From contig JAADGJ010000012.1 of the NCBI GenBank assembly GCA_013152435.1, positions 1-64,000 of the forward strand: a stretch of DNA of 64,000 bases, in the 5' to 3' direction. Each line of letters begins with the position of its first letter. Positions within the stretch are counted from its first letter, which is position 1. The notes under the pieces were generated by a model, which was not told the DNA's origin, ran no database searches, and saw nothing but the letters and a program-made list of their open reading frames with translations. This document shows, in pieces, positions 116 through 7,540 of this stretch. This stretch comes from Chloroflexota bacterium. Its GTDB lineage: Bacteria > Chloroflexota > Anaerolineae > DUEN01. The translations under genes and the position numbers were made by a program.

Positions 116-272
116 CTGAACGATTATTCAACTATAGATCGGTCCCGACAGCCACATCGCCCCCGCAGCGCCACGTTCACGTGTGATGCTACCCCTTCGG
201 CTTCTCAGAACAAGGAAGGGAGCGACGGTGGCTGTCCGACCATCATATGACATCGCACAACCGGAGGTGATC

Positions 273-698
273 GTGACCGCCGTCAGGCATCGTTCGCCGT
301 GGATCCGAAGGATCACGCTATTCGCTTTCATCATGATCGTCGCCGCCCTGCTGGCGGCTTGCGGGAATCCCCCGCCGCGCATCGTGGTGGAGCCCCAATC
401 CCAGGATCTGGGCGAGAGGCCACAAGAGCCCCTGGAGCTGACTTATACGGTACGCAACGAGGGGGGAAGCCCCTTGCGAATCGAGAAGGTGAGCACATCC
501 TGCGGCTGCACCCGGGCGACCGTGGATCGAGAGACCATCCCCCCCGGCGAATCCGCCCAATTGCGCGTCGTGCTCGATCCCACCGAGGACAACCTGTACG
601 GGAACCTGCTGCGAGTGATCTACGTGCGCAGCAATGACCCGGACAACCCAGAGGTAGAGGTGGAGTTTCGGGTAACCATCCGGAAGCCGGAGGGTTAG
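273..698 (+). CDS. DUF1573 domain lipoprotein
   Basis: A 141-residue exported lipoprotein. The GTG start at 273 is chosen because GGAGG at 263-267 precedes it by 5 nt and because it places a normal lipoprotein signal at the N terminus (membrane segment about 14-28, lipobox LLAAC, acylated Cys30). The rest is one Ig-like DUF1573 domain with the hallmark phrase CGCTRA and an alternating beta pattern ending in SNDPDNPEVEVEF. Family members are extracytoplasmic and have no settled biochemical role. It stands first in an operon with electron-transfer genes, 9 bp before the next gene. Domain call secure, function unknown. Confidence 0.85.
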   Translation: MTAVRHRSPWIRRITLFAFIMIVAALLAACGNPPPRIVVEPQSQDLGERPQEPLELTYTVRNEGGSPLRIEKVSTSCGCTRATVDRETIPPGESAQLRVVLDPTEDNLYGNLLRVIYVRSNDPDNPEVEVEFRVTIRKPEG

Positions 699-707
699 GA
701 GGCCCCG

Positions 708-1433
708 ATGCTCAAACGCTGGCTGGAAAAGCTGGCCGGGAGTAACACCCTCTACTATCCCGGATGCGTGACCCATTATGCCCTGCCCGACATCGGCAGG
801 CGCTATGAAGAGCTGCTACGCCAGGCCGGGGTGGATTTCATCGTCCTGTCCGGAGAGGTCCTCTGCTGCGGCAGCCCTGTCAAACGGGCTGGCTATCTCG
901 CCGACTTCGAGGATCTGAAGGCGAAGAATCAGGCCATCTTCGCCCGCTTCAGCGTCCGCAAGATCATCACCAACTGTCCCGGCTGCTACCATACCCTCAA
1001 GTTCGACTACGGGCTAGACGCCTACCACGTCACTCAGGTGCTCTCGCCCGAACGGCTGAGGACGGGCGATGGACGAGCCAGTGTGGGCCGTGAAGCTCCC
1101 ATCACCTACCACGACCCATGTCACCTGGGACGCTGGTCCGACATCTACGACGAGCCGCGGCGCCTGCTGGCGCGGGCCGGATGGACGGTGACGGAGTTGC
1201 CCGACAACCGGGAGCACAGCCTGTGTTGCGGCGCGGGCGGAGGCGTGAAGTCCAACTTCCCCGATCTGGCGAACGCCATCGCCCGGCAGCGCCTGGCCCT
1301 GGTGGAGAACGAGCGGCTCTGCACAGCCTGTCCTCTCTGCTACGCCCATTTCAAGGAAAACGCCGATGGGGTGGAGGTGCTGGAGCTCAGCGAGGCCCTG
1401 ATGGGCGGCCTGAGCCGGGAGGATACGCCATGA
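708..1433 (+). CDS. CCG-domain Fe-S protein (HdrB / GlcF C-terminal-like)
   Basis: A 241-residue cytoplasmic protein with two cysteine-rich CCG repeats: C20, C53-C54-G55, C90-x2-C93, and C138, C173-C174-G175, C205/C208/C211. In HdrB, LutA and the C-terminal half of GlcF these motifs bind non-cubane or 4Fe-4S clusters and pass electrons between a flavin subunit and a membrane carrier. The usual GlcF ferredoxin half is missing and is encoded separately at 2599. The stop codon overlaps the next start (ATGA), so translation is coupled to the FAD subunit. Probable electron-transfer subunit of a 2-hydroxyacid dehydrogenase. Confidence 0.85.
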   Translation: MLKRWLEKLAGSNTLYYPGCVTHYALPDIGRRYEELLRQAGVDFIVLSGEVLCCGSPVKRAGYLADFEDLKAKNQAIFARFSVRKIITNCPGCYHTLKFDYGLDAYHVTQVLSPERLRTGDGRASVGREAPITYHDPCHLGRWSDIYDEPRRLLARAGWTVTELPDNREHSLCCGAGGGVKSNFPDLANAIARQRLALVENERLCTACPLCYAHFKENADGVEVLELSEALMGGLSREDTP

Positions 1434-2605
1434 ACCTGGAGCGCCTATCAACGCTCGTTGGCGAGGAGAACGTCTCCACTGCAATCGAGGATCGAATCGT
1501 CTACGGCCGGGACGCCTCCCGTTTGGAGGGGGAGTGCCAGGCCGTGGTCTGGCCGTCACGCCCGGAGCAGGTGGCCGCGATCGTCGAGTGGGCCCGGAGG
1601 GAGGGCGTCGATCTGGTACCTCGCGGGGCAGGCACGGGGCTCTGCGGCGGGGCCGTCCCCCAGCATTCGGTAGTGGTGGATCTCTCGCGTCTGATCTACA
1701 TCGGCCCCGTGGACCTCGGACAGCGTCGGATACGGGTGGGAGCCGGCGTCGCATTGGGAGCCCTCAACCGTCATCTGGCGGCGGATGGCCTCCTCCTGCC
1801 CGTTATCCCGGGCAGCCATCGAGCGGCCAGCATCGGCGGCATGATCGCCACCGACGCGGCGGGGCTGCGCGCCGTGCGCTATGGCACCATGCGGAACTGG
1901 GTTGAGGAGGTCACCCTGGTGGACGGCCTGGGGCGTATCCACCGCCTGGCCGGAGACGAGGTGAATGACGCGGCGGGATGGGAGGGAATCACCGGCTTCG
2001 TCACCGAGGCGACGATGCGCCTGATCCCCCTTCCCGCTCGGCGCACGGTATCGCTCCTCCCCTTCGACGGCGAGGAGGCGCTGCTGGCCCAGCGAGATCG
2101 ATGGCTGGCCGATCCCCGGCTCACGGCGCTGGAGTACATCAACCGCCACGCGGCGGAGGCCATCGGCTGGGAGGCGCGTCCGCACCTGCTGGCGGAGTTC
2201 GACTCGGACGGCGGGGAGATCGCCGATCCGGAGCGCATCGCCGCCCTGTGGCATGCCCGCGATGGCCTCTATCCGGTGCTGGCCCGAAGCGGCTATCCCG
2301 TCATCGAGGACCCGCAGATGGAAGGGGAAGGGCTGGCAACACTGCTGGCCTGGCTGGAGGCGGAGGGGATCCCCGCCTTCGGCCATCTGGGCGTCGGTAT
2401 CATGCATCCCTGCTTCCACCCCAATGACGAGCGCTTGGCCGCGCTCTACGAGCGGGTGGCGGAATGGGGCGGCCGGGTCAGCGGAGAGCACGGCATCGGA
2501 TTGAAGAAGAAGAGATGGACCGACGCCGCCTTCCAGGCCGAGGCACGGCGGTTGAAGGAGCACTACGATCCGCAGCAGGTGATCAACCGGGGGAAGCTAT
2601 GCTGA
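1430..2605 (+). CDS. FAD-linked 2-hydroxyacid dehydrogenase, GlcD-like
   Basis: A 391-residue flavoprotein of the GlcD / D-lactate dehydrogenase family. The PCMH-type FAD domain occupies about 1-200 (pyrophosphate-binding region PRGAGTGLCGG) and the FAD-oxidase C-terminal domain follows, ending with the family motif GEHGIG near residue 355. It would oxidise glycolate, D-lactate or a related 2-hydroxyacid. It is shorter than typical GlcD (about 460-500 residues). The ATG at 1430 overlaps the previous stop by ATGA; an upstream in-frame extension inside the CCG gene is not supported. Flanked by HdrB-like and HdrC-like genes, so the three likely form one complex. Substrate not determinable. Confidence 0.85.
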   Translation: MNLERLSTLVGEENVSTAIEDRIVYGRDASRLEGECQAVVWPSRPEQVAAIVEWARREGVDLVPRGAGTGLCGGAVPQHSVVVDLSRLIYIGPVDLGQRRIRVGAGVALGALNRHLAADGLLLPVIPGSHRAASIGGMIATDAAGLRAVRYGTMRNWVEEVTLVDGLGRIHRLAGDEVNDAAGWEGITGFVTEATMRLIPLPARRTVSLLPFDGEEALLAQRDRWLADPRLTALEYINRHAAEAIGWEARPHLLAEFDSDGGEIADPERIAALWHARDGLYPVLARSGYPVIEDPQMEGEGLATLLAWLEAEGIPAFGHLGVGIMHPCFHPNDERLAALYERVAEWGGRVSGEHGIGLKKKRWTDAAFQAEARRLKEHYDPQQVINRGKLC

Positions 2606-2952
2606 GAGAGCTGGCCGAGAACCCGCCCTGCATCGAGTGCGGCCTGTGCCGGGAGGCCTGTCCCATCTTCACGATCCTGCGGCAGGAGCACATCAGCCCC
2701 AGGGGGTTGGCCATCCTGGCGGATCAGGGCGTGGCCTCCGTGGTGTTCTATCAATGCACGTTATGTCGATCCTGTCGAGTGATCTGTCCCGTGGGCCACG
2801 ATCCGGCCGGGGAGAGCATACGCGCCGATCTGGTGGCGCGAGGCGTGGAGACGGAGGCCAACCGGGAGATGATCGCCAACATCCGGCAGTACGGGAATCC
2901 GTTCGGGCCGTTGAAGGAGGGGGAGATCCCCAAAAGGCTCACCTGCTGCTGA
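2599..2952 (+). CDS. Small 4Fe-4S ferredoxin, HdrC / GlcF N-terminal-like
   Basis: A 117-residue protein with two classical cluster motifs: C11-x2-C14-x2-C17-x3-C21-P and C53-x2-C56-x2-C59-x3-C63-P. The spacing and the phrase ISPRGLAIL match HdrC and the N-terminal half of GlcF. The ATG at 2599 overlaps the end of the GlcD-like gene. With the CCG protein at 708 it rebuilds a full GlcF/HdrD-type module from two genes placed on either side of the flavin subunit. The C terminus ends in CC before TGA. Likely relays electrons from flavin to the CCG protein and then to the quinone pool or the multihaem cytochrome downstream. Confidence 0.85.
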   Translation: MLRELAENPPCIECGLCREACPIFTILRQEHISPRGLAILADQGVASVVFYQCTLCRSCRVICPVGHDPAGESIRADLVARGVETEANREMIANIRQYGNPFGPLKEGEIPKRLTCC

Positions 2953-3198: not shown

Positions 3199-4857
3199 AT
3201 GAGTGAGCCACCGTCGGCACCTGAAAACCGGGCACCGGAAGTGCACGAGTTTCAATTACTGATCCGAAATCCGCTCAGCTGGCTGGGCGGCGTGATCGCT
3301 GCCGTCGCGACGGTGGTCTTGGTGATCCTGCTTTTCCTGCAATTCACCGCCCCTCGCCACAGCCCTTACCTGGGCGTCGTCACCTTCCTGATCCTGCCGA
3401 TGATGCTGGTCACCGGGCTACTGCTGGTGCCCATCGGCATGCTCTGGAACCGGCGCCGACTGCGCGCCGCCCAGGCCCTCCAGCCTGGCGTAGTGTTGCG
3501 ACCCTTCCCCAGCCTGGATCTGAACATCCCCGAGCAACGGCACCGCGTGATCCTGTTCCTGATGGCTACGGCCGGGATCGTGATGCTGCTGGGCCTGGTC
3601 ACTTACAAGGGGTACCAGTTCACCGAATCCGTCAGCTTCTGCGGGCAGGTGTGCCACCAGGTGATGGCACCCGAGTTCGTGACTTACCAGAACTCACCTC
3701 ACGCCCGCGTCAAGTGCGTCGAGTGCCACATCGGCCCGGGTGCGACCTGGCTGGTCCGATCGAAGATCACCGGGATCAGCCAGGTGATAGCGGTCCTGAC
3801 GAACTCCTATCCCCGGCCCATCCCGCTACCGATCAAAAATCTCCGCCCCGCCCGCGACACATGCGAACAATGCCATTGGCCCCAGAAGTTCTACGGCGAC
3901 CGGATGAAAACCAGCCCGCACTTCAACTCCGATGAGCAGAATACCGGTGAGCGCATCTTCATGATCATCCGGGTCGGAGGGCGGGGAGTAGAGATGAGCG
4001 CCAGCCGGGGGGTGCATTGGCACGTAGATCCGCGTATCCGAGTCGAATACATCGCCACCGATCCCGCCCGGCAGGATATCCCCTGGGTACGCGTGACCCG
4101 AGCCAACGGCGAGGTCGTCGAATATCTGCGGGCCGGTTCGGATCTAACCCCTGAAGACATCGCCCGGCTGCCCAAGCGCGTGATGGACTGCGTGGACTGC
4201 CACAACCAGCCCTCGCATACCTTCAAGTCGCCCAGTCAGGCGGTGGACCAAGCCCTGGCCGCCGGCAAGATCGATCGGAGCCTGCCCTACATTCGACGGC
4301 GGTTGGTGGAGCTGCTCAGCCGGAGCCATCCCTCTGTGGAAGTGGCCACGATGACGCTGGACAAAGAGTTGACGAACTACTATCGGACCTCCTATCCTGC
4401 CCTATATGCGGCTCGGGCGGATGCCGTGCGCCAGGCGATCCGGGTCGCCCAGAATATCTATCGGACGAACATCTTCCCTGAAATGAAGGTCGATTGGAGA
4501 ACGTACCCGAACAATATCGGCCACAAGGACTCACCCGGGTGCTTCCGCTGCCACGACCTGCACCATCTCAGCGCCGACGGCAGCAATATCCCCATGGACT
4601 GCGACTTGTGCCATACCATTCCGACCACGATCGCCATCGACAAACCCTTCACCGTGCGTCCGACAGACCTACCGCCGAAGCCACCCTCCCACAAAGAGCC
4701 GGGATGGTCCGTTCGTCACGACTCCGACGCCCAGAACACGTGCCGTCAATGCCACGAACCAGGCTTCTGTGCCTATGGCCTCTGCCACGGGCCGACGTGG
4801 ACCGGTTGGCTCTTCTACACTGGCGGCCAAAACTGTACGCTCTGCCATAAGGGATAG
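3199..4857 (+). CDS. NapC/NirT-like membrane multihaem cytochrome c
   Basis: A 552-residue protein with about three N-terminal membrane segments (near 30-55, 60-88 and 115-138) followed by an outward-facing haem-rich domain. Seven CxxCH motifs are visible (CVECH, CEQCH, CVDCH, CFRCH, CDLCH, CRQCH, CTLCH). Two atypical sites, CGQVCH (Cx3CH, first in order) and CAYGLCH (Cx4CH), could raise the count to nine. The first site followed by QVM resembles the quinol-proximal haem of NapC/NrfH-type proteins. It probably takes electrons from menaquinol or the upstream dehydrogenase and passes them to periplasmic partners. A cytochrome c maturation locus lies at 45827-49041. Confidence 0.8.
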   Translation: MSEPPSAPENRAPEVHEFQLLIRNPLSWLGGVIAAVATVVLVILLFLQFTAPRHSPYLGVVTFLILPMMLVTGLLLVPIGMLWNRRRLRAAQALQPGVVLRPFPSLDLNIPEQRHRVILFLMATAGIVMLLGLVTYKGYQFTESVSFCGQVCHQVMAPEFVTYQNSPHARVKCVECHIGPGATWLVRSKITGISQVIAVLTNSYPRPIPLPIKNLRPARDTCEQCHWPQKFYGDRMKTSPHFNSDEQNTGERIFMIIRVGGRGVEMSASRGVHWHVDPRIRVEYIATDPARQDIPWVRVTRANGEVVEYLRAGSDLTPEDIARLPKRVMDCVDCHNQPSHTFKSPSQAVDQALAAGKIDRSLPYIRRRLVELLSRSHPSVEVATMTLDKELTNYYRTSYPALYAARADAVRQAIRVAQNIYRTNIFPEMKVDWRTYPNNIGHKDSPGCFRCHDLHHLSADGSNIPMDCDLCHTIPTTIAIDKPFTVRPTDLPPKPPSHKEPGWSVRHDSDAQNTCRQCHEPGFCAYGLCHGPTWTGWLFYTGGQNCTLCHKG

Positions 4858-4865
4858 GAAAGACG

Positions 4866-5453
4866 ATGAAACAAGTGCTCCTGTTTCTTTCGCAAGGTTT
4901 TGAGGAGGCGGAAGCGGCCGCCTTTATCGACGTCCTGGGCTGGACACGCTCCACCGAGGGAGTCACGCCCGTGGATACCGTGGTGGCCGGCCTCCGATCG
5001 GAGGTCAGGGCCGCCCACAGCCTTGTCGTACGGCCCCAACATTTGCTATCGGAGCTGGATCTGAGCCGGTTTGCAGCCCTGGCCTTCCCCGGCGGATACC
5101 ACGACCGAGGCTTTACCGAGGCATATGAGCCGGTCGTGCTGGATGCCATTCGCACCATCCACGCTGCCGGGGGCATCATCGCCACCATCTGCGTCGCCGC
5201 CCGTCCCGTGGCCGCCGCCGGGCTGCTCGCCGGCAAGGAGGCGACCACCTATCCCCTGGATGGGGGCAAACACCTTCGCTACCTGGCCGAGCACGGCGCG
5301 AGGGTGAGGGACCAAGAAGTCGTGGTGAGCGATCGCATTATCACCAGCACGGGCCCGGCGACCGGCTTCACGGTAGCTTTCCGGCTTCTGGAGATGCTCA
5401 ACGGCTCCGAGGACGTGAAGAGGATCCAACATGCAATGCGGTTTCAGGATTGA
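4866..5453 (+). CDS. DJ-1/PfpI family protein
   Basis: A 195-residue class I glutamine-amidotransferase-like protein of the DJ-1/PfpI superfamily. Visible features are the N-terminal GFEEAE with the conserved Glu near 14 and the nucleophile-elbow Cys109 in IATICVAARP. Relatives act as glyoxalases, deglycases or redox-sensitive chaperones; the sequence does not say which. The gene starts 8 bp after the multihaem cytochrome and is followed by thiol-redox genes, which fits a protective role against reactive carbonyls or oxidants, but that is inference. Confidence 0.8.
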   Translation: MKQVLLFLSQGFEEAEAAAFIDVLGWTRSTEGVTPVDTVVAGLRSEVRAAHSLVVRPQHLLSELDLSRFAALAFPGGYHDRGFTEAYEPVVLDAIRTIHAAGGIIATICVAARPVAAAGLLAGKEATTYPLDGGKHLRYLAEHGARVRDQEVVVSDRIITSTGPATGFTVAFRLLEMLNGSEDVKRIQHAMRFQD

Positions 5454-5526: not shown

Positions 5527-6726
5527 ATGAAGGGATTGCTGCGACTGGCCCTAGTGCTGGGCACCTTATGGGCCTCGGTCGCCGTAGCCTGGGCCCAAGA
5601 CTCCGGGCGTCAGGCCGTCGTCTACTATAACGAAGCCTGCGACGAGTGCGTAACCTATGTCGAGGGCGAACTGGCGGAGATCATGGCCGCCCACCAGATC
5701 CAGCTCGTCAAGAAGGACTACATCAACCAGCGAGAGAACCGCCGGGAGCTAAACGAGCTGAACGACCGGCTGGGCGTGCCGTTGGAATTGCAAAGCCATC
5801 TGGCCACCTATATCGACGATGGGCGCATCATCCTGCAGGGCGAACCCCCTCGTGCAGTAGTAGAGGCCCTGCTGGCACCAGACGCCCAACTGCCAGAGCG
5901 CATCCTGGTCTACCGTGACGAAGGAGCTGACGAATACAAAGTCTGGGCCTTCGCCGGCCCCATCCAGAGCTACCCGGCCGACACCCCCATTGAGACCTAC
6001 CTGACCTGGTTTGAGGCCAACCGGGAGAGCTTCCCGACCGCAACGGCCGACAAACCTAGCCTGCTGCTGCCAGCGGTGCTGCTCACCGGGCTGGTGGACG
6101 GGATCAACCCCTGCGCGCTGGCCATCCTGCTCTTCTTCGTCTCCTTCCTGTTCACCATCCGCAAGACGCGGGCCTCCGTAGCTCGCATGGGAGCCGTATA
6201 CATCGCCGCGGTGTATGTGGTCTACTTCCTGATCGGGCTGGGGCTGCTGCGCGCCTCGACGCTGCTCCAGGGACACTGGCTGGGCCAAGCAGGAGCCGTC
6301 CTGCTGATCCTGCTGGGCCTCACCAACCTGCTGGGAGCCATCTTCCCCAACTTTCCCATCCGATTGGAGGTGCCCGAGGGGAGCAAGGAATCGCTGCAAA
6401 AGTGGATGTACCGGGCCACGCTGCCCACCACCCTGGTGCTGGGCACACTGGTGGGGCTGCACACCTTCCCCTGCTCCGGCGGCCCCTATGTGGCGGTGCT
6501 GGGATTGCTGGCCAGCCAGACCGGGTTCTGGGAAGGGGTAGTCTACCTGGTGCTCTACAACCTGATGTTCGTCGTGCCGCTCGTCGTCGTGCTCCTCCTG
6601 TCATTGGATCCGGTGCTGGGAGGCAAGATCCAGGAGTGGGAGCGATCATCCTCACGAGCGGTGCGAGGCGTAACCGGCGGTGTGATGGCCGCCCTGGGCC
6701 TTGGCCTGCTGATCTGGGTGCTCTAG
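5527..6726 (+). CDS. CcdA/DsbD-type thiol transporter with glutaredoxin-like N-terminal domain
   Basis: A 399-residue protein with signal peptide (1-24, ending AWAQ), an extracytoplasmic thioredoxin/glutaredoxin-like domain carrying C38-D-E-C41, and from about 180 a six-helix CcdA/DsbD-like core with the paired transport cysteines at NPC196 and FPC316. Such proteins move reducing equivalents from cytoplasmic thioredoxin across the membrane. The fused N-terminal domain could receive them directly, as in DsbD. AGGAGG sits 8 nt before the ATG. The next gene is the selenocysteine-candidate DsbA, making this its likely redox partner. Confidence 0.8.
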   Translation: MKGLLRLALVLGTLWASVAVAWAQDSGRQAVVYYNEACDECVTYVEGELAEIMAAHQIQLVKKDYINQRENRRELNELNDRLGVPLELQSHLATYIDDGRIILQGEPPRAVVEALLAPDAQLPERILVYRDEGADEYKVWAFAGPIQSYPADTPIETYLTWFEANRESFPTATADKPSLLLPAVLLTGLVDGINPCALAILLFFVSFLFTIRKTRASVARMGAVYIAAVYVVYFLIGLGLLRASTLLQGHWLGQAGAVLLILLGLTNLLGAIFPNFPIRLEVPEGSKESLQKWMYRATLPTTLVLGTLVGLHTFPCSGGPYVAVLGLLASQTGFWEGVVYLVLYNLMFVVPLVVVLLLSLDPVLGGKIQEWERSSSRAVRGVTGGVMAALGLGLLIWVL

Positions 6727-6820
6727 TCGGCGGAGAGGCCCCCGGTAAGGGCACGGTGGCACCACGTCCATGGCGCATCAGCGAAGAGCATTGCCTTCCG
6801 CTATCCGAAGGGAGTGACGC

Positions 6821-7540
6821 ATGACACCGAAGAAAAGGAAGAGGAAACCTACCCGTAGGGTGAGATCCCGCCCCACGAGCCAGAGATCAGAACAGCGCTC
6901 CTGGCTGGGAGCGCATCACCTGGCCGTTGGGTTGCTGGTTTTGCTGCTGGTGTTGGTGGTGGGTGCGATCCTGTTGATCACGGGATACGACGGCGACTCA
7001 TCCCAGGCCGCAGAGGCGGAGCTGGATAAAAGCAAGGGGGCCGCCGACGCCCCCGTTGTGGTGGTGGAATATGGGGACTTTCAGTGACCGTGGTGTCGGC
7101 GATTCGCCACCGACGCGGAGCGTCGGCTAGAAGAGGAGTATGTGAGCCAGGGCAAAGTGCGCTTCGTCTTCCGCCACTTCGCCTTCATCGGCGACGAATC
7201 GCTCTGGGCGGCGGAGGCGGCCGAGTGCGCCAACGAGCAGGGTCGCTTCTGGGATTACTACGACAAACTCTTCGAGGAGCAGGCCGGCGAAAACATAGGC
7301 GCCTTCAGCAAGGAGAACCTGAAGCGCTTCGCCGCCGAGTTGGGCCTGGACACGAAACAGTTTAACCGGTGCCTGGATTCCGGAAAATACAGCGCCAAGG
7401 TGCAACAGGAGACCGCCCAGGGCCGGCAGAAGGGCGTGCGCGGCACCCCCACCCTCTTCGTCAACGGGAAGCTCATCGAAGGAGGGGGCGACTACCAGAT
7501 ACTCCGCGCGGCCATCGAGGCGGCCCTGAACGAGCCGTGA
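6821..7540 (+). CDS. Membrane-anchored DsbA-like thioredoxin, candidate selenoprotein (TGA at 7085-7087 read as Sec)
   Basis: Read straight through one in-frame TGA, this frame gives 239 residues: a basic N terminus, a membrane anchor (about 32-55) and a complete DsbA-like thioredoxin domain. The TGA is codon 89, exactly where the family has the first active-site Cys; the codons after it read P-W-C, giving U89-P-W-C92 after VVEYGDFQ. The rest is intact: FVFRHFAFIG, an alpha-helical insert and the cis-proline loop GVRGTPTLFVNG (Pro210). A hairpin fitting a bacterial SECIS follows at 7110-7126. Read conventionally, the product would be a useless 88-residue stub plus a 132-residue fragment. A simple nonsense mutation or a sequencing error is the alternative. 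SD GAAGGGAG precedes the ATG. Confidence 0.75.
7110..7126 (+). promoter_or_regulatory. Candidate bacterial SECIS hairpin
   Basis: CCGACGC-GGA-GCGTCGG forms a perfect 7-bp stem with a GGA loop. The loop starts 29 nt after the in-frame TGA at 7085-7087. Published bacterial SECIS models place the apical loop about 16-37 nt downstream and require a G among the first two loop bases; both conditions hold. A competing 7-bp pairing (7093-7099 with 7110-7116) exists but puts its loop too close to the TGA. Confidence 0.65.

Follow-up and report, generated by a model that had tools for sequence, protein, structure and literature searches.

Selenoproteins related to DsbA, in which selenocysteine (Sec) replaces the first cysteine of the CxxC redox motif, were first seen in Sargasso Sea data in 2005 (9 sequences; PMC1088965). 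These DsbA-like UxxC proteins were listed again in PMC1794560, number 45 in 41 organisms in PMC5029168 and stand in table 1 of PMC13188914 as DsbA-like selenoprotein form 1 (PF01323, UxxC). The latter paper also uses the name 'DsbG-like' for the family NF041057 (Rcas_1661 family thioredoxin-like (seleno)lipoprotein), which includes Sec and Cys members in Chloroflexota. The closest solved folds and sequences are those of Bacillus subtilis BdbD (3eu3) and of Corynebacterium DsbA/TsdA, but these have Cys where the protein described here has a predicted Sec. The original prediction for this locus held that a selenocysteine DsbA is not well described in this kind of organism. That overstated the novelty, since UxxC DsbA proteins have been known since 2005 and NF041057 is related. 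A literature search, with most subscription papers outside its reach, found no description of the subfamily in the Caldilineae/Anaerolineae.

The gene lies within the 64,000-nucleotide stretch of Chloroflexota DNA that we analysed (the window) and has the following features:

6810 to 6814, plus strand: Shine-Dalgarno-like GGGAG, read from the sequence, 6 nt ahead of the ATG at 6821
6821 to 7540, plus strand: predicted Sec-DsbA/BdbD-type gene, 239 residues, with Sec89 in U-P-W-C and a terminal stop TGA at 7538-7540
6896 to 6979, plus strand: hydrophobic N-terminal helix (residues 26-53; sequence and predicted helix), a probable membrane anchor
7085 to 7087, plus strand: TGA read as selenocysteine at the first position of CxxC, aligned with TGA or Cys codons of relatives
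7110 to 7126, plus strand: bacterial SECIS-like hairpin, 7-bp stem (7110-7116/7120-7126) and GGA loop (7117-7119), kept in 50 TGA relatives with covariation

Apart from the terminal TGA, the sole interruption of the frame is the TGA at codon 89, which agrees with the prediction of a single TGA at the first Cys of a CPxC motif in an otherwise open frame. Both Pfam matches of the product, Thioredoxin_4 (E 9.6e-40) and DSBA (E 1.5e-22), span this codon. The PWC that follows the TGA and the continuation of the domain up to its cis-Pro, also foreseen, were confirmed by an alignment with 14 relatives, in which neither Cys92 nor the Thr-cisPro pair (T209-P210) varies. The window protein is of the DsbA type (PF13462/PF01323), with a thioredoxin fold containing an inserted helical domain, UxxC in the place of CxxC and a cis-Pro loop. 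For most of the domain, the predicted structure of the 239-residue protein has a pLDDT above 95, and a Foldseek search with this fold returned BdbD with a probability of 1.00 (TM-score 0.86 on BdbD length, rmsd 1.9, 29% identity). By sequence as well as by predicted fold, the nearest solved relatives are BdbD and Gram-positive DsbA proteins. The hydrophobic helix at residues 26-53 suggests that the catalytic domain probably faces outwards. A scan of the window for frames interrupted by a TGA close to a Cys gave nine candidates by length, among which no redox motif was recognisable by eye outside the gene described here.

Like the published form 1 proteins, compared here by description only, the window protein has a DSBA domain, Sec as the first residue of CxxC and a bacterial SECIS-like element just downstream. 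However, the published reports name neither the Caldilineae/Anaerolineae nor a conserved register of the signal. The fold is also that of NF041057, the nearest curated family, which was the best NCBIfam match of 44/44 tested Sec members. Membership of the window protein in this family was considered and rejected, since its score of 146.6 bits falls under the curated cut-off of 190. Furthermore, the Sec members of NF041057 that were read have a U-T-x-C motif, and their hairpin loop lies about 17 nt beyond the TGA, whereas the window has U-P-W-C and 29 nt. The missed cut-off and the different placement of the signal point to a sister subfamily of NF041057, new in detail and not in kind, as the probable home of the window protein. 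A separate Cys-type NF041057 protein is present in the same genome.

Homologues with and without one TGA occur in 60 genomes, the majority from the same class, and these genomes plus further ones yielded a comparison set of 176 domains after removal of identical stretches. The first motif position is TGA in 69 of the 176 domains and TGC or TGT in 107, a proportion that is not a frequency because the set was partly built by choosing TGA hits. The in-frame TGA is aligned with the conserved redox Cys of homologues, as expected of a bacterial selenoprotein, and the alternation of TGA, TGC and TGT that had been proposed as a check of codon 89 is seen at that column across Chloroflexota. For example, the same-genus orthologue (genome G001; 78% identity) keeps the TGA at codon 89, as do orthologues from other families (G052 and G291; 62-68% identity). 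The orthologues of G329 and HGW-Chloroflexi-4 have Cys, not Sec, though the gene neighbourhood is the same. Among named relatives of the gene, the closest lies on contig DUEN01000171.1 of Caldilineae bacterium isolate J4.

A quick tree built from 175 domains requires at least 23 switches of the Sec/Cys label by parsimony, and well supported branches force at least 10 of these. Genome G036 contains two copies that are sisters on this tree, L051 with Sec and L022 with Cys. The hairpin is intact in L051, and L022 still holds 5 of the 7 pairs, a remnant that matches the expectation for a decaying signal and makes a recent Sec-to-Cys change in G036 probable.

The predicted perfect 7-bp hairpin with a GGA loop was borne out (CCGACGC-GGA-GCGTCGG); its stem starts 22 nt after the TGA and its loop 29 nt after it, the latter being the distance given in the original prediction. 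A bacterial SECIS element has this layout: a hairpin that closely follows the UGA and whose small apical loop has a G near its start. At the fixed register and without gaps, at least 6 of the 7 pairs are formed in 50 of the 69 TGA domains (all 7 in 37 of them) versus 1 of the 107 Cys domains (Fisher p 7e-27, a value that takes no account of relatedness). Choosing the 50 at 6 or more pairs biases their pairing percentage and leaves the TGA-versus-Cys comparison unbiased. Shuffling of synonymous codons led us to expect about 8% of TGA domains at 6 pairs, against the 72% observed, and G is the first loop base in 50/50 hairpin-bearing TGA domains. The covariation score was 0.516, compared to 0.215 +/- 0.019 in shuffles, which do not model relatedness, and to 0.109 or less with slid structures; sliding the partner strand abolishes the score. 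Changes on both sides occur in 5 of the 7 pairs, and the exchanges C-G/U-A, A-U/G-C and G-C/U-A/A-U recur across 14 family-level groups. RNAalifold recovered the stem unaided, minus the loop-closing pair (broken in 12 sequences). These patterns show that compensatory changes conserve the hairpin and that it goes together with the TGA.

For the window sequence alone, all 7 pairs arose in 0.8% of draws from the synonymous-codon null. Folding of the mRNA, suggested earlier as a check, went both ways: the whole region of the single sequence gave no signal (z 0.06 versus shuffles) and preferred a competing hairpin as its minimum-energy fold, but the SECIS-like hairpin was the best fold once the 13 nt directly behind the TGA were dropped, as if covered by the ribosome. 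An Rfam scan of the window returned nothing at gathering scores and hence no Rfam support for a SECIS. The hairpin is therefore unremarkable in a single sequence, and it is the comparative evidence across relatives that is decisive. In the remaining TGA members the hairpin lies at other distances from the TGA, and this, with the loop at about 17 nt in NF041057, suggests that the signal was gained or shifted on separate occasions.

The genome encodes SelA, SelB and SelD, as expected of a selenoprotein producer, with selA split over two contig ends. The selA gene (572 bits) is cut by a contig end, and an overlapping second piece lies at another contig end. The two pieces (L001 and L002, on contigs C147 and C96) overlap with slightly different sequence, which suggests a strain mixture or an assembly break. 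selB encodes 640 aa and scores 299 bits, or 323 with its C-terminal piece. selD (379 bits) has an in-frame TGA in the motif MAACAG-U-ASK (L103 3720-3800, contig C61) and would be a second selenoprotein gene. Searches for tRNA-Sec (selC) by Rfam model, DNA similarity, synteny and pattern did not find it in this assembly, which is about 96% complete and in 149 contigs. The pattern search gave one match in each of five other genomes, and same-genus and same-family genomes have the gene. Thus, the search for the Sec machinery called for by the original prediction succeeded for selA, selB and a TGA-containing selD, and located selC in close relatives only. In G001, the tRNA-Sec gene adjoins a flavodoxin gene; the flanks of that site are inside two different contigs of our genome, where the position is a synteny break.

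Alternatively, the gene could be a pseudogene or an artefact, with the TGA a genuine stop or a sequencing error. The window normally uses TGA as its stop, and this very gene ends with one. However, this codon is TGA in independent assemblies from many families, the rest of the frame beyond it is intact and conserved, and compensatory changes maintain the hairpin in TGA members only, which leaves this explanation extremely improbable. We give just as little credence to a suppressor or a reassigned code that would insert another amino acid, Trp or Cys, at the UGA. The failure to find selC in the assembly would be consistent with it, but UGA serves as a stop elsewhere and SelA, SelB and SelD are present, the last with a TGA of its own in M-A-A-C-A-G-U-A-S-K. 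Furthermore, the hairpin with its G-first loop is of the bacterial SECIS type and is lost in Cys members.

The undetected selC also bears on whether the family is truly selenocysteine-containing but the tRNA-Sec was recently lost in this organism, so that no full-length product is now made. The rearrangement of the syntenic site relative to the same-genus genome and the splitting of selA across two contig ends are compatible with such a loss. Yet the TGA, the hairpin, the entire downstream frame, selB and the Sec-type selD are all intact, and the selA break at contig ends points to the assembly. tRNA-Sec is known to be missing from other assemblies: in a published benchmark, missing tRNA-Sec calls in selenoprotein-containing genomes were traced to assembly gaps (PMC5330540). 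Given the incompleteness and fragmentation of the assembly and a selA that is itself broken, the absence of selC is weak evidence; we read it as missing sequence or a rearrangement in the draft, and consider loss of the gene very unlikely. The selenocysteine reading of the TGA at 7085-7087 is, by contrast, strongly supported by codon alternation, the TGA-linked covarying hairpin and the machinery. We conclude that 6821-7540 is very probably a selenoprotein gene, in which UGA, hairpin and Sec-tRNA yield a U-P-W-C enzyme of the DsbA/BdbD type, as proposed.

Comparison with relatives establishes the frame, the fold, the exchange of Sec and Cys at this codon, the SECIS signal, the presence of SelA, SelB and SelD and the conservation of the neighbouring gene. 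The insertion of selenium itself is inferred, as are the topology, electron donor, redox direction and substrate of the enzyme. Ribosomes would arrive at the UGA (7085-7087), where SelB bound to the hairpin (7110-7126) would bring the Sec-tRNA, and translation would run on to the 239-residue protein with its U-P-W-C active site. The N-terminal helix would tether the protein outside the cytoplasmic membrane, where it would serve as a DsbA/BdbD-type thiol oxidoreductase with Sec89 as its nucleophile. The genes upstream, which belong to a conserved cluster, bear on its likely partner:

183 to 698, plus strand: DUF1573 lipoprotein, first gene of the conserved cluster
708 to 1433, plus strand: CCG-domain (heterodisulfide-reductase-like) protein, conserved cluster
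1118 to 2605, plus strand: FAD-linked oxidase, conserved cluster (mechanical ORF)
2464 to 2952, plus strand: 4Fe-4S dicluster protein, conserved cluster (mechanical ORF start)
5527 to 6726, plus strand: DsbD/CcdA-like membrane protein (DsbD_TM-like), conserved DsbA neighbour and probable electron donor

The order of the cluster is DUF1573 lipoprotein, CCG protein, FAD oxidase, 4Fe-4S protein, DsbD-like protein and DsbA. It is kept in G001, G052 and HGW-Chloroflexi-4 and partly in G329 and G291, with a DsbA of either the Sec or the Cys form. The domain of the FAD oxidase starts at residue 141 of its ORF, and the true start is therefore probably at about 1430. The CcdA/DsbD-like gene predicted upstream is indeed present and adjoins the DsbA gene in four other genomes. 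Its protein has an N-terminal CxxC (C38 and C41) and a membrane pair (C196 and C316), one cysteine per membrane segment, and all four are invariant in five orthologues. This arrangement is that expected for outward electron passage. The conserved pairing and the four expected cysteines make a reductive thiol pathway likely, in line with the earlier view of the DsbD-like protein as the probable reductant source. The partner of BdbD is quinone-linked, whereas the neighbour in the window is DsbD-like. This neighbour probably holds the Sec-DsbA reduced, which makes a reductase or isomerase likelier than an oxidase, and we propose, with moderate confidence, a reductive or isomerising role. The remaining genes of the cluster may point to a cytoplasmic electron source.

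The subfamily appears to be widespread and little described in Chloroflexota, as does its precisely conserved RNA signal. We suggest, tentatively and with rather less confidence than for the direction of the reaction, that this could be a distinct Sec-DsbA subfamily spanning at least 14 family-level groups of its class, with a fixed SECIS register of its own, repeated Sec/Cys switches and a dedicated DsbD-like reductant, and that it might represent an undescribed pathway of extracytoplasmic selenothiol reduction. Annotation that stops at the TGA truncates a common class of redox enzymes at the catalytic residue in the host's class, and the 7-bp stem, G-first triloop and 29-nt spacing provide a simple pattern to find and correct such genes. 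Furthermore, because the family has both Sec and Cys members, among them two paralogues of one genome that differ in this way, the benefit of selenium to extracytoplasmic disulfide chemistry is directly testable.

We also noted other features of the cluster and family. A gene for a NapC/NrfH-like multihaem cytochrome and a DJ-1/PfpI gene (3199-5453) lie between the 4Fe-4S and DsbD-like genes in the window; the latter two are almost adjacent in G001 and G052. The DUF1573 lipoprotein (183-698), a Cys form here, resembles NF041425 (OS_HP2 (seleno)protein family) below the cut-off. Paired Sec-DsbA domains are close together within single genomes (L209, L108, L055; G256, G154, G016), which suggests local duplication. 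Tandem two-domain DsbA proteins also occur: L058 (G003) has Sec in one domain, and L079, from contig C6 of our own genome, has Cys and exceeds the NF041057 cut-off.
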